This document shows, one piece after another, positions 1-61,401 of a DNA stretch of 64,000 bases. The position numbers and the translations under genes are program-made. Source of the stretch: Nereocystis luetkeana (Eukaryota; Sar; Phaeophyceae; Laminariales; Laminariaceae); assembly GCA_031213475.1 (NCBI GenBank), contig JARUPZ010000025.1, positions 6,149,676 through 6,213,675 on the forward strand, given 5' to 3'. The notes under the pieces were generated by a model, which did no database searches, was not told where the DNA came from, and saw nothing but the letters and a program-made list of their open reading frames with translations. The first letter of the stretch is position 1. Each line of letters begins with the position of its first letter.

Positions 1-161
1 CAGGTATGCAACGTTCGATATTATGCTACGTCGATATTTCGACAACTCGAAGTTTTGAAGTATCGGTACGAGCATGCCATGCACAACACAGAACAGAACG
101 CGCATTTGGCACTGACCACTCTGCACTATACCAGGTACACCATTTAATAGTACCAGTATAG

Positions 162-273: not shown

Positions 274-442
274 GCTCAACAGGAAGGTCCTTCTGCGAAC
301 GAAAAGGTGTAAATTCGCAGCCACGGAACTTGCATAATATCATACTATTAATAGGCATATACCTGATACGTGTATGATACGTGTAAGAGTATACGAGGAC
401 CCACAGCAGCAGTGGTATTAAAAGTAGATACCTGGTACAGCA

Positions 443-788: not shown

Positions 789-1046
789 TGCCGGCGGCTA
801 CTGCTGTACAATCAGTAGCGGTCCCTCCATAGTGCTGGAAGAGTAGTGTGCATCAGCCGACAAAAATACCAACACTATACTCGTAGAGGCAACCGGCGCT
901 CCTCCGCGCAATACCATACCACACCCTGCCGAATCCCATCTGTGACAAGCGATTGCACAGGCACTTGTAGCGGGCGACTGGCACTACTCAACCACCACTA
1001 CACAGGGACCACTACTCTGTACTCACTGCTCTGTACCAGGTATCGC

Positions 1047-1565: not shown

Positions 1566-1703
1566 GCAGACTCTCAATGCCTCTGGCAGAGTGTGCTGGT
1601 ATTGTGGTGTGTGTTCTTCAGAATATACTTTTCTTTCTACCCGTCGACATCTTGATGCATTGCTATGCTGCTGTACAGCAGTAGTAATGTACCAGGTAGT
1701 TCT

Positions 1704-1878: not shown

Positions 1879-2018
1879 TTTAGGGCTGCTTTGTAATAGT
1901 CTGCAGTCTCGTTTTGGGGACAAACCAGCAATATTCCTGAAAGCAAATACCTGGTACAGCAGTACCCGTAGTACTCTGTAGTTTTTTCCCTAAACAGGAC
2001 CGCGGTCCTAAAAGGGTT
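1879..2018. mobile_element. MITE-A copy (d), interrupted by TA-bounded inserts
   Basis: Left terminus, CTGCAGTCTCGTTTTGGGGA core and right terminus GGACCGCGGTCCTAAAAGGG are recognisable. Two extra segments break the copy: about 16 bp near 1886-1900, and 31 bp at 1950-1980. The second insert sits exactly at the TA that other copies carry in CAAGTAGTTTTGTCCCC, and is a string of short words separated by TA (CCTGG, CAGCAG, CCCG, G, CTCTG). Confidence 0.75.
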
Positions 2019-2133: not shown

Positions 2134-2149
2134 TACCTGGTACCAGGTA
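2134..2149. repeat. Palindromic TACCTGGTA / TACCAGGTA doublet
   Basis: Two overlapping copies of the enriched 9-mer form one 16 bp palindrome, TACCTGGTACCAGGTA. It is one of 20 exact occurrences in the window. Confidence 0.8.
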
Positions 2150-6170: not shown

Positions 6171-7740
6171 ACTGTGTTTTACTTCTACCCGAGGGTATGC
6201 CTCTTGTGTGTTTCAAGACTTAGGTTTTAGCTTATTTTATAGACTACACAATGGTACAACAAGAAAAATATCGTAATATTTTATTTGTTGGTAGTATGTA
6301 CGTCGTAATGTATTTACAGTATTTTTACGCCACAGGCCCTCTACTGCCCTGAGTGAGCACAAAACTTTGGGGTCAAACACGGTCTCTATACAGCTCCATG
6401 CACAGTTTTCTTGTGTCCGTCGTTGTCGTTATACAACTCGAGCACTGAAAAAATGCCCCCACAGTTCCCACAGTATCCCCCGCTCCCCCCCCCCAGCCCC
6501 TACCCCGACCGATGCCCTCACCCCCACTCCCAAAGTCACCTTGTAGAAGGGTGGTGCTTTAGTGGTTGAGCTATAGTATGGATAACATGAAAAGCTCAGT
6601 ATCTTACCCAAGGGCATGACTTTGAAGAACGTTTAATCGTTCGCGAAACCTGACCAGCATATCTACGCGCCAACTCTGAAACACCTACATGGTACTTCAA
6701 CTCTCGTAAGAGTATTGTCCTAACCGCTGCTATTGATACTTGGTCACTTGGGGAGCTCAACCGGCGGTCAGAAAACGTTACCTCGGAAGGCAAAAAGTGC
6801 AGTCTCTTTACGTACAGTGAGGATTAATGTGAATGCGCAAAGTCTAACATGTTACTAGCGGTGCATACAGAGCCTTTTTCCTCTCTTCTCGCAGGTGACC
6901 GGACCCCCCCCCCCCCCCCCTCGCGCGCGCACTTGCACAGCGTAGGCGTGGAAACCTTTGGAGGCATTCGTATAGCAAACCCCAAAGAGTGTGCACAATA
7001 ATCTCTCATCAGTGTTCACCGTATATCCACAAGAATTTGGTTACGCCCACTTTGTGCAGGCTGGGGGGGAGGGGGGTTGGGGGGGGGGGGGGGCACTTAT
7101 GTTCGGGTAGTTTGACCCACCGCGCCGAACGACGTTCGCGCGTTTAGAGTCTGCCACGAGACCCTTATGAGACCGCTGTAGTAGTAGAGAGGGTGCACGC
7201 TCTTCTTGGTGAACACCTGGTACTACTGTCATTCTTTTGGTGTGGTAAGGAATTGAGGCTCGTTCCCACACAAAAAATAAATGATATATTTTAGACGGAA
7301 GAAACGGTGCCCACACAGTCGTGAGCTGGTCTACATCCCACATTTTAGCCCAATCGTGATAGATAGGCGGTGGTCAATGTTTTTTTACAAGACAACAAGA
7401 AGTTAGTTGAGGTTCGACGGCAAATCGACACGTTTGCTTTAGTAGTAGCCTGTGTAACGGCGAGTGACTGCGATCGTATCAATCACCTAGAGTGTCAATA
7501 ATAGGAGAACCGAGCAGCCGCAATAAATGCAAGCATCACCATCATACGCGCACGGGTGTCGTCCAGCTCGATACACTGCAGTACGGATGCACCCCCTCCA
7601 GTCTCGGCAGCTCGCGGGTGTCTTCTGGTTTCTTCTTCGGGTAGGAAACGCTGCATCCGCTGCGAATTTGCCACAATATTTTCTCCTTTATATTATAATC
7701 AAGTGAAAACCTCAAAGGGGTTAAAATGTTATCGGTCGGG
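6171..7740. other. Unassigned stretch with G/C homopolymers
   Basis: Contains a C tract at about 6903-6920 and G tracts at about 7064-7093. Such tracts elsewhere in this window mark 3' ends of LINE/Q copies, but I could not recognise an element body here. No gene called. Confidence 0.4.
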
Positions 7741-7915
7741 GGGGAGGGAGGGCACTCATGGCATACCCCTACAGCGTGGTAGGGGATATATTGTTACCCC
7801 TGCAGTGCAATATAGGGGAGAAACTCATGCCTATATAGAGTATGGTAGGGGAGAAAACCATGCCTCTAGTGCACGATAGCGCAGAGAATCATGTCGCTAG
7901 AGTGCGGTACGGGGG
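7741..7915. repeat. Degenerate ~34 bp minisatellite
   Basis: About five units share the pattern ACTCATGCC...AGTGCGGTAGGGGAGA. Diverged units with the same words (CACTGCAGTGCGGTAGGGG, GTTATGCCTCTAGAGTGCG) lie in reverse orientation at 32874-32962. Confidence 0.65.
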
Positions 7916-8105: not shown

Positions 8106-10149
8106 CTACTCGATTTTTTATGTGTGTGTGAGTTTCCTCGGCCCTAGTCTGCAAGGCAAAACGGTTTCTGGTGCCGTTGCTCCGCTAGAAACCATTTAAT
8201 GCTGCGCGTCGCAAATTGTTGACTGTCCGTTACTTGTGCGGGACAAGTTCGCTTCGTAGGACAGGTGGTGGCGGTGCACTGGCGGCGGTGGTAGTGGTGG
8301 CGGTGGTAGTGATGGCTGTTGTGGTGTGATGGTTGTGGGGGGGATGGTGGTGTCGAAAATGTTTCCCACTGATTAGATACGTGGCGAACACACCTACCTA
8401 GGTAACGCTTATTTTCAAGCAGTGCATGTTGTCTCTGGTATTGCGAGGTTCGGTTTAGTTGTCATGGAATGGTTCTTGCTTATGTCCGTGCTTGCTAGGG
8501 GTTGCTATTGTCATCGAAGGAGTGTTTGTCCGGCAGCACGAATAAATACCAGCCCCTTAGCCATCTGACAGTGTGCAGCGCGTGTTCCAATCATGGCATC
8601 CCATATGTAAAAGGGTAACTAGAATCCAATGAGTTGCTAATGGGAGCTGCTGTGAATCAGACTAACTACTTTGACAAATATTATGCCAATAATGTAATCC
8701 CCCCCTTATGAACTGGCAAACTCTACTGACTCCTAGCTAACTACTATGTACGACACATTTCCTCGTTTTGCTGGCTTTGTTTCCTGGTTTTTTCCCCCCC
8801 TGGCGTTGTATTGTTTTACTTTCCTATAAGAAGAATAATATTCAAACGAGAACGTCCCTCTTTTTTTAGCCCTTCGATCTCGGAAACTAACCGTTCTTTC
8901 TTCCGCCTTTCTTCGCTTGGTTTCTCGCAAAAAACAGGATATGCGTTCCAGAATATTATCGATAGCAAAATGGCCCTAACATTACTCTAGAACTTTATTC
9001 GAGGGACAACAATAACGCCTCCACGAGAGGAAGTCCTCACACCACTTCATCCTCACAACTTCAACGATGGTGGTCACGAATGGTGACAAACCCGATCCAA
9101 GACGACTCCAGAATATCGACAGCAAGCAGTAATTATCGTCACATCGGAAAAAAACAACGACCAAGCGAAAGGAGATACCTGGTAGGATGGATTCGCGCAC
9201 CTCAACCATTGCTTTTTCACCCTCTTTTAGGTCTTCAGCGGGGGGGAAATGACGATAGCAATAATAGATGATTACGGCATGGCTGCAACGGCCACTGCTT
9301 GATATGGGGGTTGATACAATGGTTGGTGTCCGAGGTACAATGGTTGAAGGGAAGCGCTCGGCATGGGCACGACATGCCCTATCGGCACTGCTACTGGCCG
9401 CTCACGCCGCTCCTAGATGATTAGTAGCACCGGACAAAGTTATCGGTTATACTGGTCACTTGTCCCGCGGTCCCGAAAGGGCTAAAAACCAACATTGTCC
9501 CGATAGGGCTGAAAACCAACGTTGTCCTACAGTACCATTACCCTCTACATCTACTGTACAACTCTTTGTAGATTGTACCGGCTTTGTATATAGATCTGCT
9601 TCAACCACAAAAACATTACCGTATGTATTTATACACTTCGAACGCAATTTTTCAGAGACAACGACAACAAACCCAGCGGCCGAAACCGTTGAAAAGCCAA
9701 TGTGGTTGCAGAGCCAGTGCACGTCAACTTTATCCCGTCGCCTTGACGAGCCACACCGCAACCGCCATACACAAGGAACACATCAAAGAGGTAGCTACTA
9801 CTGTGAAGTTTATTAAAGATTCCGGTGTAGGAGAAGCCAGATAGAGTATTGGCCCCTCTCTGGTGTCGGGATGTGACAGCCAACAACACCGGCACTACAG
9901 CGGCAACCGGCACTATTAATAGCACAATGCCACACTGGTTTATCTCATCTGTGCCGAGCGATTCCACAGGCACCATATAGTGGGCAATCGGCCCGACCCG
10001 ACCGTTCACTGTCGAGGGACCACTATTGCCGTATCACGCTGTGCCAGCGCTTAAACGCAACCGAATCAAAAGGACAAGAGACAAAACAAATAACACTATC
10101 GGGGCAAAAGGGCGCCGTTACATGCGCGTCCGCTGGGGTCCAAGGTTGG
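8106..10149. other. Unassigned stretch
   Basis: Contains a GGT/GGC triplet-rich patch at 8262-8350 and a TACCTGGTA word at 9176-9184. Overlapping open frames at 9456-9844 run on both strands, without splice signals or recognised motifs. Confidence 0.4.
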
Positions 10150-13560: not shown

Positions 13561-13745
13561 GACTATAATAGCAAAAAGTTTCTATTAATATGTATTATAT
13601 GAAAACAACGTAATAATGAGCGCCTATAATTGATGGAGGGATCTCTACTAGGAGTAGGAACGGTGCTGCTCCGTCTCGAATGGGAACCGTGGTCAACGGT
13701 TAAATGACGAACAGGCAAGCGACAAAAGAGTACGCCCCCCCCCCA

Positions 13746-15849
13746 ACCGGCTCCTCTACGCCTGGATGGGTTGTGGTCGAGTGGCGACGACGCTGGAGTA
13801 CGAAGCCTCCAGACTCCAGACCTGTAATAATGTATAAGCTGCCTGCCCCTTCCCCCGCAAATGAACGCCACATAGACCAGACATAGACACCCTGCAAACA
13901 GTATCAGCTCAAGAACCAGGCCCGTCGGAGCAGCACACACAACACAGTACAGAGATGACCCCAAAGCACAATTATTTTCCCGTATTGGAACAAACCATAT
14001 TATTTTGACATGATGTTACTAAAACGAAGTTTAGCTCCCCTTGTCATACCCCGAACTGGATTCATATCGTACTAGTACATCAAATTTATCCACTGAAGAA
14101 TCAAAGAAAAATCCAATACCAGAACTCGAATCAGAAATAGATGTGGAAATTTTCACCCTACTATCGTCTTTTTTTCTTATACCACTAACTACACAAACCA
14201 GATTTAGGCTCATTCTTATCGGAAAGCGTTTTTTCCATAATTATTTTCCAAAGATTGGAAATAGTTGGAGATATGCACCAATATACGGAGGCGTTCTGTC
14301 ACTATTCGTGAATTTCACACATACATACATTTGGAAAAGAACCCAGGAGAGCATGGAAGATTGAAAAATTGCGCGAAAAAAATGTCGAAAAATTGGGAAG
14401 AAAGCTCCCCGATAAGAATGACTCTAAGATCTTAGAACTGAAACAGTTCAACTATTAATAAACTTTTCCCCCCTTCCTTATCCAAGCACCAACCAGACAT
14501 AGACATAAAAAATACAAGTAAGTACTCGTATATACCTGCTGTAGTAGTACACAGCAGTTTCTCCCGTACCGTTACGTATACTGGTAGCGAAGGCATAAAA
14601 CATACCTGGTAGACCAGAAACTTAGCATGAATGCGGACCACCTCACATGCACACACACGTAGATACAGCAAGGCCACCCAGACGTGTTCAGTTAACCTAA
14701 AGGTTGGGTCTTCTCGTGGTAAGCTACCACTAAACAAATATGGTTTCCATCGGGCGGTGGGAATCAGGTCTGCCATTATCCCTAAAATCCCCAACACACA
14801 GTTAACACTAGGTGCACATACCATGCGCCAAATGAAGGGGAGGGGTGGATGATGCATGACATTGGACTAAGACGTGTTCCACTCCTGAAATAAATCATGA
14901 CGCTGCAGTTCACCGACCACATAGTAACCAAGGAGAGGAAGAAGCAAGAACGGTAAGTAGATATCTTGATGGCTTCATGTCTTGAAGGAAACAAGCCGGT
15001 TCAAAACGTGAAGGAAACGTTGACCAAGCTTGCGACAGCCGAGGTCTACTCGGGAGAGCGCTGGTGGGGTAGCTACCCATGGTGAACGTGAATACGACGG
15101 AGGAAGCGACGTGCGGGGCATCCCGGTGTGTGAGTAAGAGTTTGTCTTATGCAAGCCATCCTTGGACCTCGCACGGTGTGAAAATGACCTTCCTGGAGAA
15201 AAAGCAACCAGTACAGCTGCGAGGCGAGAAAACAGAAGATACGAATGTGAGAAGCCAGGATGCTTACCGTCCGTGCCGATGGCCTGACACGAAGTAAGAC
15301 TGACAGGGTAAAGTACTATTAATAGTAGATAGTGCTGTGATATTTGGAGTCCTTAGCGACATGACGAGGGTTAATGTTCAAGGGGAAGTGCGACGAAGTA
15401 GGGTTGTACTGCTTTGCAATACGAAAAGCATAGATCGGCGGGGGGAGAACCCTTTCGAGTCACGCACAGACAGGCCGAAGTGAAGCATGGAGTGGCTGAG
15501 GACAGAGACGGAAACAGTACCAGCTTGGGTTAGAAGACTAGGATGCAGAGTATGTATGTATAACTAGTGTAGTGGAACATCGAAATTCAAACTAAGACGT
15601 GGTCCTAGGATGCACAGAGGTAAGGGGAGGCAGGAAACAGTAAGTAAGTAAGTACTTAGTGCCTGAAAGGGAATGGGGGAGAAACACAGAGGCGCGTAGT
15701 TCGCAGAAAACACCAAAAAAAACGGAAACGGAAAGAATGCTCAGAGAAATAAATGAGAATAACAGAAATAATACTCGTAGAGATGCAAGGGAGAGGGAAC
15801 GAGAGACGAGTATAGAAGAGTGGATAGTAAAACGAAAAAGAATCTGACA
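13746..15849. other. Unassigned stretch; may include LINE-B 5' region
   Basis: Purine-rich plus strand from about 14,860 onward resembles the sequence leading into the LINE-B endonuclease. I could not place the LINE 5' end. A 107-codon frame at 14041-14364 has no recognised motif. TACCTGGTA at 14603-14611, TACTCGTA at 14523 and 15772, CTATTAATAG at 15316. Confidence 0.4.
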
Positions 15850-17825: not shown

Positions 17826-18735
17826 AGAAAACGGCACGTGGGCAGAGGCGAAGTTCGAACGTAGATGCATCAGGAAGGGAAGATAGGGGTTACAGAGAGA
17901 GTTCACGAGGGAAAAAGTAAAGGAGTGTGTAGCTAACTCAAGAATACCGAAAGGCAGCAGGCGCAGACCAAATCGTGAGTCGTGGATTTGTAAAGTACGG
18001 AGGAGAAGGAATGCTTTCCATGATGGTCATGTTACATGACACGACCAGATACCTGGTAGATAATAAGGAAAAACGAGTACACACCTAGGAGGTGGAGAGA
18101 AGGAGTGGTAGTGAACATATTTTCAGAAAGGAGACAAGGCTGACCCGGGGAGCTATAATAGAGGAATGACGCCATACAGCACACAGTAGTAGGCAAAACA
18201 TTTGTAGTACGTTGAACGAAAGAATGGTAACTGTGATGGAGAAGGAAGACAACATGAGCAAAGGGCAAGCAGGGTCCGGACGAAAACGGCACGTGGGCAG
18301 AGGCGAAGTTCGAACGTAGATGCATCAGGAAGGGAAGATAGGGGTTACAGAGAGAGTTCACGAGGGAAAAAGTAAAGGAGTGTGTAGCTAACTCAAGAAT
18401 ACCGAAAGGCAGCAGGCGCAGACCAAATCGTGAGTCGTGGATTTGTAAAGTACGGAGGAGAAGGAATGCTTTCCATGATGGTCATGTTACATGACATGAC
18501 CAGATACCTGGTAGATAATAAGGAAAAACGAGTACACACCTAGGAGGTGGAGAGAAGGAGTGGTAGTGAACATATTTTCAGAAAGGAGACAAGGCTGACC
18601 CGGGGAGCTATAATAGAGGAATGACGCCATACAGCACACAGTAGTAGGCAAAACATTTGTAGTACGTTGAACGAAAGAATGGTAACTGTGATGGAGAAGG
18701 AAGGCAACATGAGCAAAGGGCAAGCAGGGTCCGGA
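17826..18735 (+). repeat. Recent 455 bp tandem duplication in the LINE-B RT
   Basis: ACGGCACGTGGGCAGAGGCG begins at 17831 and again at 18286. The units differ at only a few bases over 455 bp. The junction lies in the RT block GQAGSGxKR: the first unit breaks off there and the second continues into an otherwise colinear RT. Confidence 0.93.
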
Positions 18736-55956: not shown

Positions 55957-58900
55957 TGCTCTTGCCGCTGCTGCTCCTGCTCCTGCTGCTGCTGCTCCTG
56001 CTGCTGCGGCTGCTGCTGATCCTGCCGATGCTGCTGCAGTTGCTGCTGCTGCAGCTGGGTTGTCCTCAAAACCTCGCGACCGTGAACGAACCCCCCTCCT
56101 CCGTTCCTCGAACTCCATCCCTTCCAGCTCCCCGCCTGCGGCGACCGCCAGAGCCAAGCCATTGGAGGCGCCACTGCTGCTGCTGCCGCCACCGTGACTG
56201 GTTTTAGATCCCGCTCCTTCTTGTGCTGCTGCTGGTGCTGGTACTGAAGCGACGAAGGCTGCTGCAGGGCTCTCAGAAGCTCGCGAACCTGAACCCCCGC
56301 TCACCCCGCCGCCCCCTCCCAGCTCCACCCCATCCAGTCCCACTTTCCCCGCGTGCGTCGGATCATTCTTGGAAGATTCTTCTTCTCCTTCTTCCGCCGT
56401 TTCAAGCTGAGCAATGGTTGAATCGTCGGGAGGAGCGATCACGTCCTCCGGAAAAATCTCGTGATTTTCTTCTTCTTCTTCCGCCGTTGTTCCAAGCAGA
56501 GCAACGGTGGAAACATCGGGAGCGATCCCTTCTTTGGGAACGTTCTCGGAATATTCTTCTTCTTCCGCCGTCGTTTCACGCGGAGCAATGGTCGAACCAT
56601 CGCAAGGGATAGGGAACGGGGAGGAGGAGGAGGAGGAGGAGGAGGAGGAAAAGGAGGAGGGGAAGCTTGACCGGCGTATCGGAGAGGAGACCGGACTTTT
56701 TTTCCCGTCCGATGTTTCCCTGAGTTCCCAGTGGACGTCGTAGTCCTCCTCGCGGCGCTTGTGTAGACACCACCACGGCTCTCGGTCTGAGTAGTGATGC
56801 TGCCTCAGGCGCACTCCGTCTGGAGATACGGAGCATGCCTCCTGGAGAAAACACGTTGAGCACACGTCGGCCGACCGATACAGATCGGATCAAGATTCGA
56901 CAAAAATAAATCGACGAGCACAGAGTGGTGGGAAATCTGTGAAACTCTTTTATGCGCGGCAAAAATGAAGCCAAATGCCGGGGGGGCGGGGGGGGGGGGG
57001 GGGTACTCGATAGGAGATATGTACTCGATCTCATGCATGGCCGTACGGGGGGGGGGGGGGGGGGTGCTCGATAGGAGATATGTACTCGATCTCATGCATG
57101 GCCGTAGGGCGGGGGGGGGGGGGGGGGGGTGCTCGATAGGAGATAGATACTCGATCTCATGCGTGGCCGTAGTCGTATGACCCTAGACCATAGACCATAG
57201 ACCCCCGCATCCCTACAATGCCGGGACGGGGCGTGTCGGGTTTTCACCGACCAGGCAGACATTGCTTGCACCAAGCGCGAAGCGCCGTGAGGTGTTGGGC
57301 GAGTCGCATGAAGGGTGAGCTGCATCTTACTATGAACCACTTCAGAGGCAGACTTTCTTGCATATGGATGACAGCTGCAATGAATTACTTTAATTTCCGG
57401 CGTGGACACTTCCAGAGACAGCAGCGGGGATACTATGTAACCGCATCGTGGGTGCCTCATCACATACACAATACGTGATACGATCATCCCCCTTGTGTGG
57501 GGTAAATGCTCCCCCCGCAGAAAAATGATCTAACTCGACAGTCAGCCGTGGTAACCGCCAAAAACAAAACAAAAAAACGGTACCCTGGCTGTCTATGTAG
57601 CTCACGCAGTGAGACGCGTGTTTTTCAGCGTTGTTGACACCCGACGCCAACCCAACCTATATACCAGGTATATATATATATATAATATAGGGAGACAATG
57701 GGGGAGGGGGGAGACACCCGCGACCACCCGCAAGTCGTCCGGAGAGCTGGAAAGTTAAAGGGATTGTAAAAAACGAAAAATGAATATAGAAACATAATAC
57801 TATCTTACAGTAGATAGGCTACCGTAAAGTAGATTCTATCCTGACAATACGACATTTGGTGCGTGATCTATATACACACAGATCTAACCTCAGGGAAACA
57901 TCTCCTAATGCGTGTAGACGACGCAGATCGGTATGGCTCCGACCTGGAGGACATGAACTAGATCATACAGATGATGAATCTCTCCCCTTTCTTCCCTGAC
58001 AGATCGAGATCATGAGGTGGAAATCTCATGGTCTGTCTCCGATACGTGTGTGTGTCAATGCTCCTGTATATACAGGCGGCAACTTCTTGCGTGCATGCTT
58101 TGAGTTAACAGACGAGCGGGTGCTCCGCTCTCCAACGGCAGACCCTTAACGAATCTCAAACTCACGAATTGTCAACCCCTCTAGAGAAACGGCAAAACGC
58201 CGATTTTCGTGAGGGACAAGGGTAACCGCTTCTGGAATTCGTGTGGGTTGATTTTTCCACGGGTGTAAAGCCATACCAGGTAGGGTACAAGGAGCATTCT
58301 TGCTCACCTCAGTCTCCAGGGTATACTGGAAGAAGAGCATCTTCACGAACTCCTCCACCATCTCCCCCTTCCTCCCCACCACCATTTTTTCTGGGTCATC
58401 GGAGAACAGCCGTTTCAGGTCCTCAACGGACACATGCAGGCGACACCTGGAAACAGGTACACGCGAAAAACGGGAGGTCAGACGGGAGACGGGCACACGC
58501 ATTGGGCTAGGGTTGGATATCGTATCAAACGTTTTCAATATATCTCTGCTGCCAGTTTTGTTTTTCTCCCCATTTCATATATCCGCCCCTCTTCGTTTCT
58601 CATAGTACGGGGGACCATAGTAAATAGGACCAAATGTCGTTCGTAAAAATAGGTGGATATATTGGTTTTTGCGCGTACCGTACGTCCTACCAGGTATTCA
58701 ATATGGTCCCCCGTAATATGTATTACTCTGTGTTACCATGTAATACACTGTATTACCATGTATTACTCTGTGTTACTCTGTATTACCATATATTACTATG
58801 TATTACTCCGTATTACTGCCAGGTACGTATTGCTCTGTATTACTATATAATATAATGTATAACCACCAGCTATGTTTTAGTGTGTGTTTCTACGTGTTAG

Positions 58901-61401
58901 TATGTACTAATACCAGGTACCGGTATGTTTCACTGTGTTGCTATGACCCCCGTATTGGCTACGCGACATCAGCTAACAATCTCCGATTTTCCGGGCTAAG
59001 GCCCGCGGCTTATTGTGATGCCAACATTGAGCACAGATACGCTCTTGAGAGCTACAGGCAAAAACATTAGTCAATACCACGTACCTGGTAGCATTTCGAG
59101 AGGCGTTCCTTGCTGAGATGGGCACGAATGCTTAACTGAAAATTCTTCAAAAAATCTGTGAATTCCTATTTTTTATGCAAAACAAACCGGGGCATTCCTC
59201 GGGATTTTTCATTTGTTTCCCGCGGGATTTACCCCGCGATTGTTTTGCAGGATTCGGGATAACCCCCTGGTCCCTTGAAAAATGTGAAATCCTAGGTCGA
59301 CACGAACGCGTCCCGCACAATTTCTATTCCCCCATTCCCGCGCCGAGGAAAAGTGTGAGTCCCGTTCCCGCACGAACACGTCCCGGGGTGGCCACATCCC
59401 ATACAAGGGATGTCATCTGGTACCGAGGTGCCTGGGTCCCGCAGGATATTGTCCCGAAGTCGAAAAGATGTCCCAAGGAATGCCCTGAAAAACTCGGCCC
59501 GAAATGATTAAAGTCCCAAATTCTTTACACATTTTCAAAACCGTACTGTGGCCGTGAATTCCGCCGACAACCCACAGCCTCCCTGATTGTGGCAGTGCCC
59601 ACGACTCACGTCAGAGAAGATGCCGGCACGTACGCCTCGACGAGGAGGCCTCTGGAGTATGGTGCCCCTTCCACCACCACGCGACCCGCCATGCCGAGCC
59701 CAAACACTGCTTGTGCGGGGGGGGGTAATATTGCATCGTAGTTGGGGTAGGGATGACACACGTAGCGTTATGTATGGTTCACACCCCCCTGGACTTTCAC
59801 GGTGGGGGGGGGTTGGGGAGCTTATTCCGAACAACGACAACCTTGGCAGCAGCAGTAACGGCAGCAGCAATTTCTACTTCCTGGAAACGTTTAATAACTG
59901 ATCAACGCTGACGCGAGTTCATGATGCACACACCGGCAGTCGGATGGCAAACGCGAACATAAACGACCAGGCGATAAACATTTAATGTCCATCTCGAACC
60001 AAAACCAACATCAACATCAACATCAATATCAACACGTGTAAAAAAGGGTTGATGAAATGGTTTCCATACAGAGTATTTGTTTTTTGTCTTGGAGGCGGTA
60101 TCTCGCCTGCAACGATGGCGTGGGTCCGGCTCACTAGCAGGGCTCCCTTCCACAGAGCGAGTCTGCCCAGCATCATCTGCGCCTCAGGCGACCACTCCCA
60201 CCTTTGTTTCGTCCAAAATAGCGAGGGAACAAATGTACAGGAGGTTTGCCAGGAAGAGGAATTGTCGAGAGCGGCAAAGGCTAAGGTTAATTTAACCTCT
60301 TTTATGCTGCCGAACTGGGTAGAACCCTCAACAGCGGTACTCGAATTCCACGTAATGTGGCGCGTGCCCGTGACGGGAGAGCAGTCCCTCAAGGTGTTAA
60401 GAGAAACACTTGCCGTCGTAAAACAGTCCACAACCGAGTAGCGTCGGGCCCAAGTTCGTTTCGACGACGGGGACGCCCAAAGCTTGCTCCGCGACAGCCT
60501 GTTTTCCCACCCGTAGCGAGCGTTTCGAGCGCATCGTTCAAATCGCCCAAACGCACCCTCGAGAATTACCGATGGGAGCTGAGAAAGTGCTGGCAATGTT
60601 TCCAACGAACGCTCCAGGTGATACCAAAAGCAAGCATAAAAGAGAAACGCTCTGTCTCGCCAACCGTCTTGAGGTGAGCGAGAGGTCTGGCGTGCGAGTG
60701 ACGTAGTCATTGTACGAGCGTAATTGCCCAACTATGACTACCTACGTATACCGCAGTGACACCATCCCCGAGTTTCTTCGGGTGCCCGAGGATGCAATCG
60801 GCCTTTTTCCACCGTCTCTCGTTCTCCTCTCCGGTAGGATAGTCCCGAGGAGATTGACTTGCAACCCCTGCCGAAGCTAACCTCCACGCGTTTCACGCCG
60901 GCCACCCGAAGCTTTGGCCGAGATCACTTGATCCCCTCTCCCACAGCGACGGTTTGGATCTCATCACTGCAGGGGCGACTAATTCTCCAGTTCTTGTTTG
61001 TTTCATACTGGCTAACTATATGTTACAGCGTTTCCTGAAAACTTTCTATTAGTACTGCATCCACCTTTTTGGGGGGAGAGGGGGAACGAACTACCTGGAA
61101 TTAGGAACTGTAGTATGGAAGTAATTTAGGCAGTAAGTGAGAACTAACCGAAAAAAACGAAAGCAGCCTATCAACGGCCGCATCGCCGCCTCGCCACCGC
61201 CGCGTCGGGACTCACCTCCACGTGTCCACGCCGGTAGCCCAAAGCTCGCACCTCGGCCACCTCCTTCCCGAGTCCCCAACTCCGTCGGAGCCACCGCCGC
61301 AGCCGCCGGTCGTGTCTCCCTTTTTTCCGCCCATTCCCCCCCCACCTCGGGGTCCACCCCGCAGCGCTTTCCCGTAGCGGCTCTCGTCTTCGAAGCAGAA
61401 C
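25166..61401 (-). CDS. Spliced gene model, 14 exons, unidentified protein (at least 1,260 codons)
   Basis: Minus-strand exons, 5' to 3': 61401-61216, 59706-59610, 58446-58308, 56841-55560, 52460-52300, 47909-47761, 46711-46487, 44547-44359, 43553-43328, 38033-37551, 33163-32996, 31382-31244, 27260-27106, 25354-25166 (stop TAG 25168-25166). Each exon has AG before it and GT after it, and reading phase is continuous at all 13 junctions. I do not recognise the family. Visible features are alanine-rich triplet-encoded runs (exons 4 and 10), an acidic ~30-residue repeat (exon 4), beta-rich short exons and a Lys/Arg/Ala-rich helical C-terminus. The N-terminal start is not identified and may lie beyond 61.4 kb. 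Introns are 0.8-5.3 kb and hold most repeats in the window. Two adjoining genes remain possible, since no transcript evidence is available. Confidence 0.6.
25452..25561. mobile_element. MITE-B copy 4
   Basis: TTACGGGGGGGGAGATGGTC at the left, TTCAATATGGTCCCCTATTA at the right. It lies back to back with copy 5, just upstream of terminal exon 14 in gene orientation. Confidence 0.8.
25564..25670. mobile_element. MITE-B copy 5
   Basis: TATTACGGGGGACCATAGTA ... GCAATGTTCCCCCGTAATA. Adjacent to copy 4 with only a few bases between. Confidence 0.85.
25671..27105. other. Intronic unassigned sequence
   Basis: Lies between exon 13 and exon 14 of the minus-strand model. No repeat termini or additional exon recognised. 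Confidence 0.4.
27106..27260 (-). CDS. Exon 13
   Basis: Acceptor CCTCCACGCAG, donor GCTCAG/GTGACG. It encodes KGATVHDRPAISLTWGVKFD and then an acidic helix-like EEAVEPIALDDGGGELYEEQ and an Ala-rich end. It begins with two bases that complete the split codon left by exon 12, and ends in phase 0. Codon third positions are mostly G/C, unlike the flanking intron sequence. Confidence 0.7.
27322..27571 (-). mobile_element. Element R copy 1
   Basis: About 250 bp with termini GAGGCGTTCTACGACAGAGG and CCTCTACCGTAGAACGCATC. The interior words CTCACCCGAAAACTGACTTC and GGCATTCCGACGATTTTGGG match other copies. No coding capacity. Confidence 0.85.
27781..27880. mobile_element. MITE-A copy (g), diverged
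   Basis: AGGACCGCAGACCCGTCTTG and GGACTGGACTGCGGTCTTAA arms are recognisable. Both ends contain small indels. Confidence 0.65.
28240..28441. repeat. (CCT)n microsatellite
   Basis: About 200 bp of CCT/CTC units with a few interruptions. Pro, Leu and Gly open frames across it are artefacts. Confidence 0.95.
28480..29480. repeat. GATC-rich degenerate tandem repeat (~130 bp units)
   Basis: Recurring words CGGCGGACGGGTCGCGATCT, TAGATCCTATC, CTGCCGTTGCGAGATG and ATCTAGATCATCTAGATCCT. Units are strongly diverged. Related sequence is found at 2.3, 33.5, 41.3, 42.1, 48.2 and 57.9 kb. Confidence 0.6.
29511..29604. mobile_element. MITE-A copy (h), diverged
   Basis: TTTTAGAACTGCAGTCCTGT at the left with GGCTGCGGTATTAAAA at the right. 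Flanking TTAA lost. Confidence 0.7.
29605..30488. other. Intronic unassigned sequence
   Basis: No exon, element terminus or RNA gene recognised. A G tract at about 30231-30247. Confidence 0.4.
30489..30594. mobile_element. MITE-B copy 6
   Basis: TTACGGGGGACCATAGTTAA ... TTAACTATGGTCCCCCGTAA. Good arm symmetry. Confidence 0.9.
30698..30853. mobile_element. Hairpin element with GGGTCGAT termini and TTA target duplication
   Basis: TTA, then GGGTCGATGAACACGAGG ... CCTCGTAAAAGATCGACCC, then TTA. Inner arms TTTCCCGAAATATCGGTATT and ATTTCGGGAAAATACCGA pair. Other R copies have a single uninterrupted CCTTAACCCAAAATCG here. A 3-bp TTA duplication is typical of PIF/Harbinger-type elements; only one copy is seen. 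Confidence 0.65.
30980..31066. mobile_element. MITE-A copy (i), left end truncated
   Basis: AGAACCGCAGTCCCGTTCTG at the left without the leading CCCTTT; right end intact with TTAA at 31063-31066. Nested in R copy 2. Confidence 0.88.
31244..31382 (-). CDS. Exon 12
   Basis: Acceptor GACGCGGCAG, donor GAAGAAG/GTATAT. It encodes KMTGEVRDVQLQVALAALVV and then FDVVDDAASAGFDEANSAPK and an acidic end. It starts in phase 0, as exon 11 requires, and ends in phase 1, as exon 13 requires. The ATG inside could also be read as a start, but phase continuity with exon 11 favours an internal exon. Confidence 0.68.
31480..32470. repeat. Degenerate ~110 bp tandem repeat, interrupted by R copy 3
   Basis: About seven units with CTTGTTCGGCCCACAGCGGC, GGGAGGAA.ATA...AGCGATA and GCTCG.AG.GAA.AATCGC. 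R copy 3 (31702-31928) splits one unit. The frames across it (80-139 codons) do not share a conserved reading frame. Confidence 0.65.
31702..31928 (+). mobile_element. Element R copy 3
   Basis: CACGTTCTACGATCGTAGAG at the left, then AGCACATTTCCGC, CATGGGATTATTCATCGGGA, GTCAGTTTTCGGGTGAGGTA and GGGGTGAACCTCTAT at the right. The very end is missing. Confidence 0.8.
32711..32866 (+). mobile_element. Q element copy 7, diverged 3' part
   Basis: ATGTGCTCCGTCTCGGCATT followed by GTCTATGGACACGCGACTAC and CATGCATGGCATGAGTACCC, ending in a C tract. A second C tract precedes it. Confidence 0.7.
32874..32962. repeat. Fragment of the ~34 bp minisatellite seen at 7.8 kb
   Basis: Reverse complement contains GTTATGCCTCTAGAGTGCG-like and CACTGCAGTGCGGTAGGGG words shared with 7741-7915. 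Confidence 0.55.
32996..33163 (-). CDS. Exon 11
   Basis: Acceptor AACCCAACAG, donor TTCCAG/GTAAGG. Exactly 56 codons, phase 0 at both ends: VPGVGAVYCNPMHLLVTVSQ, WHQTLRVRCYDFLSGETREA, then PRPAPKEDAELIREFQ. The alternating hydrophobic pattern in the first half suggests beta strands, perhaps a propeller-like or C2-like fold; I cannot name the family. A G-rich run follows the donor closely in the transcript. Confidence 0.78.
33515..33900. repeat. GATC-rich dispersed repeat, interrupted by MITE-B
   Basis: GACAGATCGGACAGATCATG, CAGATCAGCTAGATCATCTG, and after the MITE CATCCAACCCAGGAAACAGG and GATGATAC words. Related to 28.5-29.5 kb. Confidence 0.5.
33571..33676. mobile_element. MITE-B copy 7
   Basis: TTACGGGGGACCATAGTAAG ... 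TTAATATGGCCCCCCGTAA, followed by TA. Confidence 0.87.
33901..34455. other. Intronic unassigned sequence
   Basis: Overlapping frames on both strands. No splice-flanked exon with matching phase found. Confidence 0.4.
34456..34522. repeat. (CT)n followed by C tract
   Basis: About 22 CT units, then about 20 C. Confidence 0.95.
34552..34706 (+). mobile_element. Q element copy 8, diverged 3' part
   Basis: GGCGCTTCGGTGCTTGGTGC, CTGGTCGGTGAAAGCCCGAC, GTGCTCCGTCCCGACATTGT, GATCATACGACTACGGCCCT, ending in a CTCCC-rich tail. Confidence 0.75.
35120..35490. repeat. ~140 bp tandem repeat, three units
   Basis: CTGACTGGCACG occurs at about 35175, 35318 and 35450 with conserved surroundings (GAGCATTGAGT..GTTCGCCGG, TACGTCGCCAC). 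Confidence 0.75.
35499..35607. mobile_element. MITE-B copy 8
   Basis: TA, TTACGGGGCACCACAGTTAA ... TTAACTATGGTCCCCCGTAA, TA. Confidence 0.9.
35880..36200. repeat. ~110 bp tandem repeat, three units
   Basis: GGGNCAGAGCGGTATTATCAACGGAT-type cores at about 35930, 36040 and 36153. A related fragment (ACCACTCTGTCCCAAAATAT) lies near 54,662. Confidence 0.7.
36556..36835 (+). mobile_element. Q element copy 5, 5'-truncated
   Basis: Plus orientation. ACACCGGAAATTTAATCAAC, CATATGCAAGTCCGCCTC, GATGCAGCTCACCCTTCATG, GTGCTCCG-type block, GAGATCGAGTACATCTCTCC, then a C tract at 36820-36835. It shows the element's 3' end directly. Confidence 0.85.
36920..37030. mobile_element. MITE-B copy 9
   Basis: TATTACCGGGGGACCATAGT ... 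TTAACTATGGTCCCCCGGTC. Confidence 0.9.
37300..37545. repeat. Degenerate tandem repeat with GACCGCTTGACTGAC words
   Basis: GACCGCTTGACTGACCG, GACCGCTTGACTGACAG, CGACGCGTCGAG and CTTGACGCGTCAAG occur here, as at 4150-4400. It abuts the donor side of exon 10. Confidence 0.6.
37551..38033 (-). CDS. Exon 10, alanine-rich
   Basis: Acceptor CGGCCAG, donor GATGCC/GTAAGA; an alternative donor CGGAAG/GTACCT 21 bases earlier keeps the same phase. It encodes VEAHTTFSLVLGKGDLARLT, EGSDVLAHAENWPVGVSAAD, then a ~65-residue Ala/Asp/Thr run, then EDEAWELVARKVPPRND. The Ala run comes from a CAG/CTG-type array (37729-37925 on the plus strand) with GCC/GAT interruptions. Phase 0 at both ends matches its neighbours. 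Confidence 0.62.
37729..37925. repeat. (GCA)n/(CAG)n compound microsatellite within exon 10
   Basis: About 200 bp of imperfect GCA units with GGC, GTA and ATC variants. In the exon frame it encodes an alanine-rich tract. Confidence 0.95.
38354..38936 (-). mobile_element. Q element copy 1, near full length with two CCTGGTA inserts
   Basis: Minus orientation: 5' end GGTTGGGTTGGCGTCGGTTG at 38929, 3' end in a C tract (G tract 38354-38391 on plus). Compared with copies 2-4 it has an extra CCTGGTA after a TA at 38685-38691 and again at 38731-38737. Confidence 0.85.
38936..39265 (+). mobile_element. tRNA-derived SINE, copy 2
   Basis: Box A TGGTTCAAGTGG at 38951-38962 and box B GGTTCGAGCCC at 38994-39004 lie in a tRNA-like head (CTGGG/CCCAG T-stem pairs). 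Next come a linker TTTATTTGCAAAAATAAAAA, a body shared with copy 1 (GTACCGTAGCGGGAAGGGGG, CTATGTGACCCCGGATCTGA), and the A-rich end GGGATGAGAAAAAAAATAAA. The acceptor stem does not form, so this is a retroposon. It begins exactly where Q copy 1 ends. Confidence 0.85.
39266..39296. repeat. (AT)n microsatellite
   Basis: About 13 AT units directly after the SINE A-rich tail. Confidence 0.9.
39531..39793 (-). mobile_element. Element R copy 4
   Basis: GAGGCGTTCTACGATAGACG at the left and CCTCTAACGTAGAACGCGTC at the right. Interior words AGGAGCTCCATACCTCACCC and ACATTCCGACGATTTCGGGT. Intact, uninterrupted copy. Confidence 0.9.
39794..40683. other. Intronic unassigned sequence
   Basis: G tract near 40042-40066 and an A tract near 40257-40270. 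The 211-codon minus frame (39557-40192) overlaps R copy 4 and has no conserved motif. Confidence 0.4.
40684..40734. repeat. (CA)n microsatellite
   Basis: About 25 uninterrupted CA units. Confidence 0.97.
41270..41345. repeat. GATC-family fragment leading into the ACAGATCAT array
   Basis: TCGTGCAGATTGCACAGTTC, CCACCCGGCAACGCGACGAC. It matches 42185-42230 and 2415-2455. Confidence 0.5.
41346..41775. repeat. ACAGATCAT-type short-unit satellite
   Basis: About 45 degenerate 9-10 bp units (ACAGATCAT, ACTGATCAC, ACAGACCAT). The reverse-oriented counterpart lies at 48075-48205. His/Thr/Asp or Met/Ile/Cys repeat frames across it are artefacts. Confidence 0.9.
42040..42240. repeat. GATC-rich dispersed repeat
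   Basis: AGATAGATCATGATCTATCT palindrome, then GCGAATCTAACCCCAGGAAG, GTCATGCAGACTATGCAG and CTCCCACCCAGCCACATG. Same family as 2.3, 29.2, 41.3 and 57.9 kb. Confidence 0.6.
42219..42291 (+). mobile_element. LINE 3'-end fragment
   Basis: GGATGCGTGGTTAACGATCA, TGACTAAGGCAAGCAACAAA, TGAGTACGCTCG, then a C tract. It matches the 3' end of LINE-B at 20490-20552. Extreme 5' truncation is typical of LINE insertion. Confidence 0.8.
42292..43140. other. Intronic sequence with C tracts, a CAG run and an unassigned frame
   Basis: C tract 42377-42392; CAG run 42803-42832. A plus frame at 42566-42952 (CGDPKQELMLVYAGEPWGVP onward) is open for 128 codons, but without paired splice sites I leave it uncalled. 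Confidence 0.35.
43328..43553 (-). CDS. Exon 9
   Basis: Acceptor GTCGAGACAG, donor GGAAAGG/GTACGT (other GT sites nearby). It encodes TVAYAPDTQPAALGFGGDRV, NARQLQQPSVKDHRRYASLD, then DLHHTASTTPPMPAAARGAL and a charged end. The first base completes the codon split by exon 8, and it ends in phase 0 for exon 10. High G/C third positions on the minus strand support coding. Confidence 0.6.
43680..43816. repeat. (GGGGA)n microsatellite
   Basis: About 25 units with little variation; G-quadruplex prone on the plus strand. Confidence 0.96.
44062..44330 (+). mobile_element. Element R copy 5 (empty TTAA site)
   Basis: GACGCGTTCTCCGATGGATG at the left, CCTCTATCGTAAAACGCCTC at the right. It has a single CTCCTTAACCCAAAATCGTC where copies 6 and 7 carry MITE-A, so it serves as the pre-insertion reference. 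Confidence 0.88.
44359..44547 (-). CDS. Exon 8
   Basis: Acceptor TCCCTTTACAG, donor GCTGTCAG/GTGCTC. After one base completing the previous codon the frame reads DQKGTTSAVAVSGGAGGAHN, LDRSQNRRAEDAVPPLGEGR, EVAAAAPGGAKISRRRRPRC. Open throughout and phase 2 at the end, as exon 9 needs. It looks like a low-complexity linker; function unknown. Confidence 0.58.
44562..44583. repeat. G homopolymer
   Basis: About 22 G just upstream (in gene orientation) of exon 8; in the transcript this is a C tract that could act as part of a pyrimidine-rich acceptor region. Confidence 0.9.
44584..45208. other. Intronic unassigned sequence
   Basis: CTCAGTTAACTCAGTTAACT short direct repeat near 44613. No exon or element recognised. 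Confidence 0.4.
45209..45319. mobile_element. MITE-B copy 10
   Basis: TA, TTACGGGGTACCCTAGTAAA ... TTTACTGTGGTCCCCCGTGA, TA. Confidence 0.88.
45544..45575. mobile_element. MITE-A right-end relic
   Basis: GATTTGTCCCCCAGGCGGGA followed by CCGCAGCCTTAA resembles the right arm only. It directly precedes copy (j). Confidence 0.55.
45572..45667. mobile_element. MITE-A copy (j)
   Basis: Left TTAA at 45572-45575 and CCCTTTTAGAACCGCAGTCC; right GACACTGCGGTTCTAAAAGG without TTAA. Confidence 0.9.
45701..45800. mobile_element. MITE-A copy (k)
   Basis: Left TTAA at 45701-45704, then CCCCCTTTTAGGACTGCAGT; right GGACTGCGGTCCTAAAAGGG without TTAA. Its arms use GGACTGCAG instead of GAACCGCAG, a subfamily shared with copies (d) and (o). 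Confidence 0.9.
46200..46475 (-). repeat. Tandem Q-terminal units separated by G tracts
   Basis: Three to four ~60 bp units of the form TACTCGATAGGAGATATGTA / CTCGATCTCATGCATGGCCA / TAGTCGTATGGGAGG, each preceded by a 10-20 base G tract. In minus orientation each is a Q 3' end followed by poly-C. Confidence 0.85.
46487..46711 (-). CDS. Exon 7
   Basis: Acceptor TGCCTTCTCCAG with a good pyrimidine tract; donor CTACGCAG/GTTGGC is weak. It encodes IIFTNAPTGDTFSLTVGVGA, LAATDCALATTNASPRSWTI, GQRRRIIKRAIAGRSFFLPT and an acidic EEGEDSDADERPLRRLA end. Phases on both sides fit exons 6 and 8. A plus-strand frame is also open here, but only the minus frame has the splice context. Confidence 0.65.
46755..47230 (-). 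mobile_element. Q element copy 2, near full length
   Basis: G tract at 46755-46771 (3' tail), body words AGTCTGCCTCACAAGCGGTT and GTTGGGTTGGCGTCGGTTGG near 47222. It has no CCTGGTA inserts, so it is a reference for copy 1. Confidence 0.88.
47761..47909 (-). CDS. Exon 6
   Basis: Acceptor GACGCGACAG, donor AACTTGAG/GTGAGG. It encodes VEATKAAKLQAWLAIKPRFR, GLTLGTVTRVSGRLLSLMVY, ELPQQPGNL. Phase 0 at the start; two bases over at the end, completed to Arg by exon 7. The compact hydrophobic pattern suggests a folded domain. One of the clearest exons in the window. Confidence 0.8.
48075..48205. repeat. CTGTATGAT-type short-unit satellite
   Basis: About 13 units of GATCTGTAT. It is the reverse complement of the 41.3-41.8 kb array, followed by GATC-family words (TTCCTGGGTTGGATCTG). 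Confidence 0.88.
48330..48358. repeat. (GATA)n microsatellite
   Basis: Seven units of AGAT inside GATC-family sequence. Confidence 0.85.
48469..48730. repeat. ~70 bp tandem repeat, four units
   Basis: Core CCGGGAATATA.G.TCC.TTTTATATTTATATCAGAG..CCAA repeats near 48477, 48546, 48616 and 48676, decaying downstream. Confidence 0.8.
48841..49185 (+). mobile_element. Element R copy 6, filled with MITE-A
   Basis: GACGCGTTCTACGATAGAAG at the left, CCCTCTATCTATCGG at the right. Interrupted at its internal TTAA by MITE-A (48903-48999). Confidence 0.88.
48903..48999. mobile_element. MITE-A copy (l), inserted in R copy 6
   Basis: Perfect TTAA at 48903-48906 and 48996-48999. R copies 5 and 8 carry a single TTAA here. 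Confidence 0.96.
49186..49612. other. Intronic unassigned sequence
   Basis: A and C homopolymers (about 49273-49286 and 49531-49552). No exon recognised. Confidence 0.4.
49613..49709. mobile_element. MITE-A copy (m), intact
   Basis: TTAA at 49613-49616 and 49706-49709; arms CCCTTTTAGAACCGCAGTCC and GGGACTGCGGTTCTAAAGGG. Confidence 0.95.
49976..50317 (+). mobile_element. Element R copy 7, filled with MITE-A
   Basis: GACGCGTTCTACGATAGAGG at the left, CCTCTATTGTAGAACGCCTC at the right. MITE-A sits in the same internal TTAA as in copy 6, but is a different sequence variant. Confidence 0.92.
50038..50135. mobile_element. MITE-A copy (n), inserted in R copy 7
   Basis: Perfect TTAA at 50038-50041 and 50132-50135; arms differ slightly from copy (l). 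Confidence 0.96.
50435..50703 (+). mobile_element. Element R copy 8 (empty TTAA site)
   Basis: GCGCTCTACGATAGAGGTAC at the left, CCACTATGTCATAGAATGCC at the right. Internal CTTCTTAACCTAAAATCGTC is unoccupied. Confidence 0.88.
50704..51700. other. Intronic sequence; AT palindromes and a CAG run
   Basis: ATATATATCATATATATCAT near 51270 and a CAG run at 51450-51485. No exon recognised. Confidence 0.45.
51701..51807. mobile_element. MITE-A copy (o)
   Basis: CCCCTTTTAGGACTGCAGTC at the left, with a duplicated TTGGGGACAA inside; right end AGTTCTAAAGGGC followed by TTAA at 51804-51807. Confidence 0.82.
51917..52024. mobile_element. MITE-B copy 11
   Basis: CACGGGGGACCACATAGTAA ... GTTTTACCATGGTCCCCCGT. 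Small indels in both arms. Confidence 0.85.
52264..52287. repeat. C homopolymer
   Basis: About 23 C, lying 12 bases past the donor of exon 5; a long G run in the transcript. Confidence 0.9.
52300..52460 (-). CDS. Exon 5
   Basis: Acceptor TTTGTTTTTTGGCAG, the best pyrimidine tract in the model; donor CGGCAG/GTGCGG. Two bases complete the Gly codon from exon 4, then RELGGEGKRSRRTKILAEGS, GVAGEGAGTRPGGKVRVNAF, SVRMGEYKEELRQ. It ends in phase 0 for exon 6. Basic and Gly-rich first half, more structured second half. Confidence 0.75.
52561..53099 (-). mobile_element. Q element copy 3, near full length
   Basis: 3' tail is the G-rich stretch 52561-52603 on plus. Body words CTAAGAACCGCTTGTGAGGC and CAATGGGAGTACTATGTAAC; 5' end GGTTGGGTTGGCGTCGGTTG at about 53092. 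Reference copy without CCTGGTA inserts. Confidence 0.88.
53256..53364. mobile_element. MITE-B copy 12
   Basis: TATTACGGAGGACCATAGTA ... TTTACTATGGTCCCCGGTAG. Confidence 0.9.
53610..53718. mobile_element. MITE-B copy 13
   Basis: TATTACGGGGAACCATAGTA ... TTTAACGTGGTCCCCCGCAA, then TA. Confidence 0.9.
53955..54200. repeat. (TTTG)n microsatellite
   Basis: About 240 bp of GTTT units with CGTTT and GTGTTT variants. Phe/Val/Cys/Leu frames across it are artefacts. Confidence 0.95.
54776..54863. mobile_element. MITE-A copy (p)
   Basis: GTTTAAAACCGCGGTCCCGT at the left; GGGACTGCGGTCCTAAAAGG at the right, followed by GTAA. Confidence 0.82.
54949..55166 (+). mobile_element. LINE 3' fragment (~220 bp)
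   Basis: Starts in the final coding words (AGATAGATGGTGGCCACAGG) and runs through TAGGAGTAGGAACGGTGCTC, GGTCAGATGACTAAGGCAAT and GAGTACGCTCCC into a C tract of about 20. Colinear with LINE-B 20345-20552. Confidence 0.9.
55560..56841 (-). CDS. Exon 4, large low-complexity exon
   Basis: Acceptor GTGTTTTCTCCAG, donor ACCAAAG/GTGTGG; 1,282 bases. The N-terminal part EACSVSPDGVRLRQHHYSDR EPWWCLHKRREEDYDVHWEL looks globular. Then come a Ser run, three diverged ~30-residue acidic repeats (STIAPRETTAEEEEYSENVP; STVALLGTTAEEEEENHEIF; STIAQLETAEEGEEESSKND), a Gly/Ser region, an Ala run encoded by a CTG-type array, then ERAVWVLQLLRVSGAHNLVD. Phase 0 in, phase 1 out, fitting exons 3 and 5. The acidic repeats are conserved at the residue level, which supports translation of this frame. 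Confidence 0.68.
55881..56060. repeat. (CTG)n-type array within exon 4
   Basis: About 180 bp of CTG with CTC, CCG and CGG variants. It encodes alanine in the exon frame, while another minus frame gives Gln and the plus frames Leu/Ala. Confidence 0.95.
56984..57110 (-). repeat. Two tandem Q-terminal units with G tracts
   Basis: GGGTACTCGATAGGAGATAT / GTACTCGATCTCATGCATGG occurs twice here, each preceded by a G tract, and a third time as the end of Q copy 4. Confidence 0.9.
57111..57671 (-). mobile_element. Q element copy 4, near full length, with TA-bounded inserts
   Basis: 3' G-tract tail at about 57113-57129, body as in copies 1-3, 5' end near 57650. Relative to the others it has an extra TGTA at 57596-57599 (TA already present before it) and CCAGGTA at 57664-57670 in the TATATA that borders the 5' end. 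Confidence 0.88.
57860..58030. repeat. GATC-rich dispersed repeat
   Basis: CACAGATCTAACCTCAGGGA, GTGTAGACGACGCAGATCGG, GACATGAACTAGATCATACA. Same word order as at 42.1 and 48.2 kb. Confidence 0.55.
58308..58446 (-). CDS. Exon 3
   Basis: Acceptor CTGTTTCCAG, donor ACTGAG/GTGAGC, both close to consensus. It encodes CRLHVSVEDLKRLFSDDPEK, MVVGRKGEMVEEFVKMLFFQ, YTLETE: an amphipathic, well-ordered sequence with no low complexity. It takes one base from exon 2's split codon and ends in phase 0. Best single coding exon by appearance; family not recognised. Confidence 0.82.
58605..58718. mobile_element. MITE-B copy 14, with a CCAGGTA insert
   Basis: TACGGGGGACCATAGTAAAT ... TTCAATATGGTCCCCCGTAA. 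The right arm reads GTCCTACCAGGTATTCAATA where other copies read CCTATTCAATA or CCTATTTAATA, so 7 bp are added exactly at the TA. Confidence 0.9.
58719..58920. repeat. TATTACTCTGTGTTACCATG-type minisatellite
   Basis: Degenerate ~11 bp units (TGTATTACTCTG, TGTATTACCATG) about 12 times, starting directly at the end of MITE-B copy 14. Confidence 0.85.
59091..59609. other. Intronic sequence with repeated CCCG-rich words
   Basis: GGGATTT and CGTCCCGCAC-type words repeat. No element termini identified. Confidence 0.35.
59610..59706 (-). CDS. Exon 2
   Basis: Acceptor CCCCGCACAAGCAG after a C tract; donor TCTGAC/GTGAGT, full consensus. Two bases complete the split codon, then FGLGMAGRVVVEGAPYSRGL LVEAYVPASSL, and two bases remain for exon 3. 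The hydrophobic alternation suggests beta structure. Confidence 0.68.
60115..60441 (+). CDS. Unassigned plus-strand ORF (108 aa)
   Basis: ATG in ACGATGGCG context, then AWVRLTSRAPFHRASLPSII, CASGDHSHLCFVQNSEGTNV, a charged EEELSRAAKAKVNLTSF segment and VLEFHVMWRVPVTGEQSLKV; stop TAG. Third positions are G/C-rich at the start. A longer frame on the minus strand (59982-60731) overlaps it, so coding strand is uncertain. It lies in intron 1 of the minus-strand gene. It could be an exon of an unseen gene or chance. Confidence 0.3.
   Translation: MAWVRLTSRAPFHRASLPSIICASGDHSHLCFVQNSEGTNVQEVCQEEELSRAAKAKVNLTSFMLPNWVEPSTAVLEFHVMWRVPVTGEQSLKVLRETLAVVKQSTTE
61216..61401 (-). CDS. Exon 1 of the recognised chain (not the start)
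   Basis: Acceptor TTCTCCTGCAACAG, donor CGTGGAG/GTGAGT. In the phase required by exon 2 it reads SASKTRAATGKRCGVDPEVG, GEWAEKRETRPAAAAVAPTE, LGTREGGGRGASFGLPAWTR. All three frames are open, so the phase is inferred from exon 2 alone. MITE-B copy 15 begins 18 bases beyond its acceptor. Confidence 0.5.

Follow-up and report, generated by a model that had tools for sequence, protein, structure and literature searches.

The window, i.e. the whole stretch of 64,000 nucleotides analysed here, contains 20 exact matches to the palindrome TACCWGGTA (W being A or T), and all 20 starts named in the initial annotation were verified. The sites are given below as candidate scars, in anticipation of their interpretation; none is assigned to a strand, and all were located by exact match, supplemented by alignment with paralogues or relatives where these are mentioned.

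129..137: candidate scar TACCAGGTA
429..437: candidate scar TACCTGGTA
1034..1042: candidate scar TACCAGGTA
1690..1698: candidate scar TACCAGGTA
1948..1956: candidate scar TACCTGGTA
2134..2149: tandem pair TACCTGGTACCAGGTA with the middle TA in common, read as two successive 7-bp insertions
9176..9184: candidate scar TACCTGGTA
14603..14611: candidate scar TACCTGGTA; plain TA in the 78% identical paralogue L032:7203
18050..18058: candidate scar TACCTGGTA, copy 1 of a 455-bp tandem duplication
18505..18513: candidate scar TACCTGGTA, copy 2 of the 455-bp tandem duplication (a single event, copied)
33407..33415: candidate scar TACCTGGTA
33682..33690: candidate scar TACCAGGTA
38683..38691: candidate scar TACCTGGTA inside a repeat, compared with relatives
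38729..38737: candidate scar TACCTGGTA in a repeat; relatives with plain TA (CTACGTGA), 1 of 6 by the gapless test
57662..57670: candidate scar TACCAGGTA, bordering a TA run
58274..58282: candidate scar TACCAGGTA
58688..58696: candidate scar TACCAGGTA in a MITE-like repeat; 27 relatives aligned, of which 19 are gapless, and 15 of these 19 have plain TA
58911..58919: candidate scar TACCAGGTA
59082..59090: candidate scar TACCTGGTA

Because the matches starting at 2134 and 2141 form one tandem pair, and those at 18050 and 18505 represent one duplicated site, the sites in the window are not all independent events. The earlier remark that some copies reside within repeats is borne out at 58688, 38683 and 38729. 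At 38683 the 7 bp are absent from all 8 relatives shown (74-82% identity), 7 of which exhibit a plain TA followed by AC; a separate 7-base gap is located 3-4 bp downstream, and owing to this second gap none of the 6 alignments passes the gapless test, which weakens the empty-site alignment at this position. Other features of the window include a tandem array of 216 copies of a CCCGA unit (23884-24966) and two kinds of MITE-like inverted repeat flanked by TA, one measuring about 100 bp with CGGGGGACCATAG at its ends (30490-30591, 33572-33674, 58606-58715 and others), the other about 75 bp with GAACCGCAGTCCCG at its ends; neither type of end matches the TACCWGG scar.

Frequency and target preference of TACCWGGTA

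The expectation of about 0.5 sites per window, proposed in the initial annotation, was reproduced by dinucleotide-preserving shuffles (n=100, mean 0.51, maximum 3, none of the 100 reaching 20), and Markov models of order 1-3 fitted on the window predicted about 0.3-0.5 sites. The search of the whole genome (465,085,209 bases, 1,987 contigs) identified 182,395 copies, i.e. 1 per ~2.55 kb, versus 1,744 for the reversed pattern of equal base composition; TACCWGGTA is thus ~105-fold above this control genome-wide. A sample of 314 kb combined the window with 20 stretches of 10 kb, all taken at the same fixed coordinate of contigs C1-C20, and with 5 more 10-kb stretches; motif-chosen loci (L001-L008 and L034 onward) were omitted from its variant, 9-mer and flank counts, and the overlapping or duplicate loci L001-L003, L005 and L006 were omitted in various combinations across the analyses. 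The sample contains 126 TACCWGGTA sites versus 3.1 (order-2) or 5.7 (order-3) expected, and the word ranks first among over-represented 9-mers with at least 12 copies in diverse contexts. The 126 sites exhibit at least 118 distinct 8-bp flanks, which rules out that TACCWGGTA is a piece of one longer repeat and agrees with the original view that no single repeat family lies behind the copies. Among the papers listed in literature searches, none contained TACCAGGTA or TACCTGGTA and no title dealt with the motif, a scope too narrow to establish absence from print.

The flanks of the 126 sites show a profile that is mirrored on both sides: counted outward, position -1 is a purine (A 0.40, G 0.39), -3 is A (0.42), -6 is A (0.56) and -7 is A/T (0.83), i.e. 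a palindromic target preference around TA that extends to 7 bp. An inserting enzyme leaves a symmetrical preference of this kind (palindromic consensus targets are described in PMC5481204), and the palindromic flanks are counted in favour of the scar interpretation.

A 7-bp unit present in some paralogues and missing from others

Presence and absence were judged among paralogues within the genome. Their comparison shows that what recurs is an insertion of 7 bp, TACCWGG, at TA, which duplicates the TA and is found in some paralogues and missing from others. At site A, the copy L029:6518 reads AAATCATACCTGGTAACGG, the copies L029:9683 and L030:1582 read AAATCATAACGG (plain TA, 93-95% identity) and L018:3833 exhibits a third state, AAATCATACCGGTAACGG; one and the same TA is therefore represented by plain TA, TACCTGG or TACCGG, depending on the copy. 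The 7 bp are present in L029:9233 and absent from L030:1134 (97% identity) at site B, and present in L030:454 and absent from L029:7305 and L018:2728 (94-95%) at site C. Site D comprises, at one TA, a monomer with A (L029:6811), a T monomer whose TA is mutated (L018:3554) and dimers (L029:9955 and L030:1820). Neighbouring TACCWGGTA copies often step by exactly 7 bp with a common TA, also on contig C1.

In a strict test, which left out sites in simple repeats or less than 100 bp from an end, an empty paralogue was identified at 5 of 21 TACCWGGTA sites and at 4 of 223 control TA-X-TA sites (pooled Fisher p = 0.0003), leaving 16 of the 21 with no empty paralogue. For each control, 400 sites were drawn at random, of which 391-393 entered the test, and an empty paralogue was found at 1/87, 2/73 and 1/63 sites for X of 5, 4 and 3 nt, respectively. 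Several of the empty sites are found in relatives of 70-83% identity. Empty copies at 94% identity were found for one TACCGGTA site and one TACCAGTA site, in each case one of the two with a spanning paralogue.

Besides TACCWGGTA, the unbiased order-3 scan of the 314 kb identified CTATTAATA (72 versus 7.3 expected), CTACAGTAG (29 versus 4.1) and TACGAGTA (46 versus 13.1) as enriched. The dispersed and enriched word TATTAATA, often in the form ACTATTAATAGT, occurs 70 times in the 314-kb sample and is seen, for instance, at L013:4568, L016:7096 and position 13583 of the window; an empty TA was found in 3 of its 7 sites with a spanning paralogue, and its flank has a profile of its own, with C at position -1, A at -2 and T at -3. 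The empty paralogues together with the distinct flank make at least one more TA-linked scar likely, and TATTAATA is probably this second type, which suggests a wider phenomenon. CTACWGTAG and TACGAGTA are likewise dispersed and enriched, with an empty paralogue in 1/8 (TACWGTA) and 0/10 (TACGAGTA) cases; TACAGTA, the Sleeping Beauty-type string, is 2.4-fold above expectation, but of its 8 sites spanned by a paralogue just 1 has an empty one. Among paralogue alignments of at least 85% identity, 4-bp TACG indels at TA (TACGTA) form the commonest TA-duplicating class (8 rows, e.g. L021:272 versus L028:9812); by the count of empty paralogues, TACGTA shows one at 1 of 15 sites. Two further observations were made in the sampled loci: L030:4572-6895 and 7511-9846 constitute an inverted repeat with 2.3-kb arms of 94% identity, ~0.6 kb apart, and a retrotransposon-like open frame in L021 has 48 relatives, of which the 9 named ones all come from the kelp Laminaria digitata (62-70% identity), and a further one matches 56% of the query at 99% identity; the host is therefore probably a brown alga.

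Candidate scar variants, the putative element and rival readings

Variants of the word were sought in the 314-kb sample. Three of them share the target-like flanks of the main form, namely TACCAGTA (CCAG; 29 sites versus 10.8 expected, z 4.4), TACCGGTA (CCGG; 17 sites, z 4.1) and TACCAGGGTA (CCAGGG; 9 sites versus 0.9 expected, z 3.6), and so does CCATGG (2 sites, 6.6-fold). Their counterparts TACCTGTA (13 versus 14.2 expected) and TACCTGGGTA (1 versus 0.9) show no enrichment in this sample. TACCSGGTA was rejected as a variant, since its 14 sites, although 4.6-fold enriched, have flanks no different from the background; also rejected were TACCGTA (empty paralogue in 0 of 22) and TAGGWCCTA as an independent scar, the latter with target-like flanks but with 7 occurrences of the longer repeat word TACCGTAGGTCCTA versus 12 of TAGGACCTA; TACCCGGTA is 4.6-fold enriched in the sample without target preference. 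Scars adjoined by a CCWGG that lacks the closing TA were sorted according to the two letters that come next (VB 667+632, TB 1,040+1,040, VA 791+745). Of the first 100 of the 1,299 scar-adjacent TACCWGGTACCWGGVB places, sorted by eye, 55 continue with CCAGGGT, 3 with CCTGGGT and 42 otherwise; all five CCAGGGT places read proceed as TACCAGGGTA and then into unrelated sequence, and TACCAGGGT was accordingly rejected as an element end. Thus, the main scar is A/T-symmetrical and the slipped scars are A-oriented, and because of the latter CCAGG is favoured over CCTGG as the end of the putative element.

We consider it probable that the TACCWGGTA sites are footprints left by the excision of a very active cut-and-paste transposon that targets TA and has CCAGG ends. 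Such an element would insert at TA and duplicate it, and upon excision the cut would leave on each flank a 5-nt 3' tail, 5'-CCAGG, derived from the element ends, as we infer from the sequence of the scars. Two CCAGG tails could anneal with a single A:A mismatch (C:G, C:G, A:A, G:C, G:C), the repair of which would yield CCAGG or CCTGG; slippage of the annealing register by +1 would give CCAGGG and by -1 CCAG, while loss of the mismatch would give CCGG. Self-annealing of a 5-nt tail with one mismatch would explain both the CCWGG main product and the A-oriented minor products. A low-copy, very mobile element would leave one scar per hop, and the TAs of an existing scar could be struck again, resulting in tandem pairs at 7-bp steps. 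With these assumptions the element end would be resolved to CCAGG and the overhang to 5 nt. The prediction for slip +2, CCAGGGG, is represented by 2 sites versus 1 of CCTGGGG, numbers too small to discriminate. Against the overhang model stands an excess that it neither predicts nor explains: among the first 100 TB places, i.e. tandem scars decayed at the last A, 64 are T-centred and 36 A-centred (by eye). As to age, 264 kb contain 97 exact sites (2.5 expected) and 135 one-mismatch neighbours (56.8 expected, an excess of ~78); scars with one substitution would therefore be nearly as many as those with none, which suggests that the activity was long or is old.

The initial annotation had interpreted the sites as possible footprints of an active family with ends beginning CCTGG or CCAGG. 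The footprint part is well supported by the 7-bp insertion at a duplicated TA, the empty paralogues, the target preference, the serial insertion and the variant scars, and the choice of ends can be narrowed towards CCAGG; the donor half remains unproven. No element with the predicted TA-CCWGG ends was found in ~330 kb (<0.1% of the genome): none of 126 TA-flanked inverted-repeat pairs (~282 kb) begins with CCWGG, and a looser scan for TA-CC...GG-TA ends (~329 kb) yielded nothing convincing in the 60 shown of 68 candidates, most of which belong to larger palindromes or represent poly-C tracts, other repeats or scar dimers. The inverted repeat at L029:5156-5489 was discarded as an element, as it runs on outward. 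Of the 42 VB places without a GGT ending, the 21 that were read show no common continuation by eye, nor do the 20 TG-type places read, and the TB and VA listings resemble single transitions of a decayed scar (VA from the listing alone). One-sided sharing from the junction among 359 flanks was limited to 3 site D pairs, one scar-dimer pair and one 20-bp match. A profile search with DDE_3 (PF13358) gave no matches at E <= 0.001 among 30 candidates scored with introns ignored, and is hence a weak test; Pfam scans of 17 long open frames from the window and the sample identified one reverse transcriptase. As no donor was found, it may today be rare, gone, or of a kind outside the recognised families that were searched.

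It is unlikely that the scars were instead made by a mariner-like element with an ordinary 3-nt overhang (5'-CCA), one terminal A being lost before joining (CCA+GG or CC+TGG). Such a process would account for the W centre, for CCGG and for the rare CCATGG as the untrimmed product, and in the available part of PMC3419177 the 5' ITR of Mos1 starts with CCAGG and its pre-cleaved end is drawn with a 3-base overhang. However, CCA cannot pair with CCA, so that a single product would not be expected to dominate (126 sites versus 29, 17, 9 and 2), and CCAGGG requires at least 4 nt from one end. We regard as improbable a scenario with no resident donor, in which a domesticated or hit-and-run TA recombinase with an unusual 5-nt stagger put DNA in and took it out again, or directly added the 7 bp, on the order of 100,000 times, so that scars but no elements remained, with TATTAATA as another product of such activity. 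Direct insertion, the alternative raised in the initial annotation, in which no transposon takes part and an enzyme (e.g. a domesticated transposase or integrase) puts or leaves the 7 bp at TA, is very improbable and less likely than an excision footprint: it would fit the failure to find a donor in any test made, but less than 0.1% of the genome was read and the protein search was a weak one, and cut-and-paste excision predicts the target preference, the duplicated TA and the slipped-annealing products. Finally, it is hardly credible that the word is a motif under selection or with a function (a site of binding or modification), or that it belongs to a single repeat family, for although a very frequent palindrome with a W centre might suggest it, the presence or absence as a 7-bp unit in paralogues, on account of which a selected motif was rejected, the diversity of flanks and the tandems at 7-bp steps all argue against it.

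Implications and comparison with known systems

If excision footprints are the correct reading, a single genome would preserve, like a fossil record, the traces of transposon departures numbering on the order of 100,000 (one site per 2.5 kb, some of them copied), each scar being dateable by its own decay and by its host repeat. How often elements excise, which targets they choose and how the breaks are repaired (by annealing, slippage or mismatch repair) would become measurable in a natural genome at a scale usually confined to the laboratory, and the 7-bp insertions, which would shift reading frames, could be a steady source of mutations. A transposon may then scar a genome in vast numbers and yet remain too rare to be seen; a comparison of related algae could both date the activity and find the donor.

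A close parallel is provided by the Tc1/mariner elements Sleeping Beauty and Frog Prince. The A/T-centred scar of Sleeping Beauty is attributed to a central mismatch. According to the available parts of PMC3878927 and PMC7827188, Sleeping Beauty leaves a 3-nt 3' overhang and a scar identical to that overhang, with the footprint C(A/T)GTA. The likeness to these elements comprises the TA target with its duplication and the palindromic scar with an A/T centre; the alga differs in the scar of 5 nt (CCWGG) rather than 3, in the huge number of scars and in that the donor was not found. Relative to the Sleeping Beauty logic, the scar is thus two bases longer. For Tc1/mariner elements in general, overhangs of 2-3 nt are reported (PMC3878927, available part). 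TACCWGGTA resembles their footprints in both the TA insertion with TA duplication and the palindromic target preference, whereas the 5 nt between the TAs (4 and 6 nt in the variants) and the putative overhang exceed 2-3 nt. The scar therefore appears to work like a Tc1/mariner excision footprint with family membership unproven, and it was not filed under Tc1/mariner because its length differs and no element or transposase was found. In the case of Mos1, which shares the TA target and differs by its 3-nt overhang (PMC3419177, available part), the predicted TA-CCAGG end equals the first five bases of the 5' ITR, which may be a coincidence.

Two further systems resemble the alga in host or in scale. 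The brown alga Ectocarpus, whose lineage is probably related to that of the host, possesses the TA-targeting superfamily in the form of 17 Tc1/mariner families with ~12,000 copies, according to the available part of PMC12477816, the main text of which contains neither 'footprint' nor 'excision'. The internal eliminated sequences of Paramecium are likewise TA-bounded and involve tens of thousands of events per genome, but their excision is precise and leaves one TA without a scar (PMC3464196, available part).
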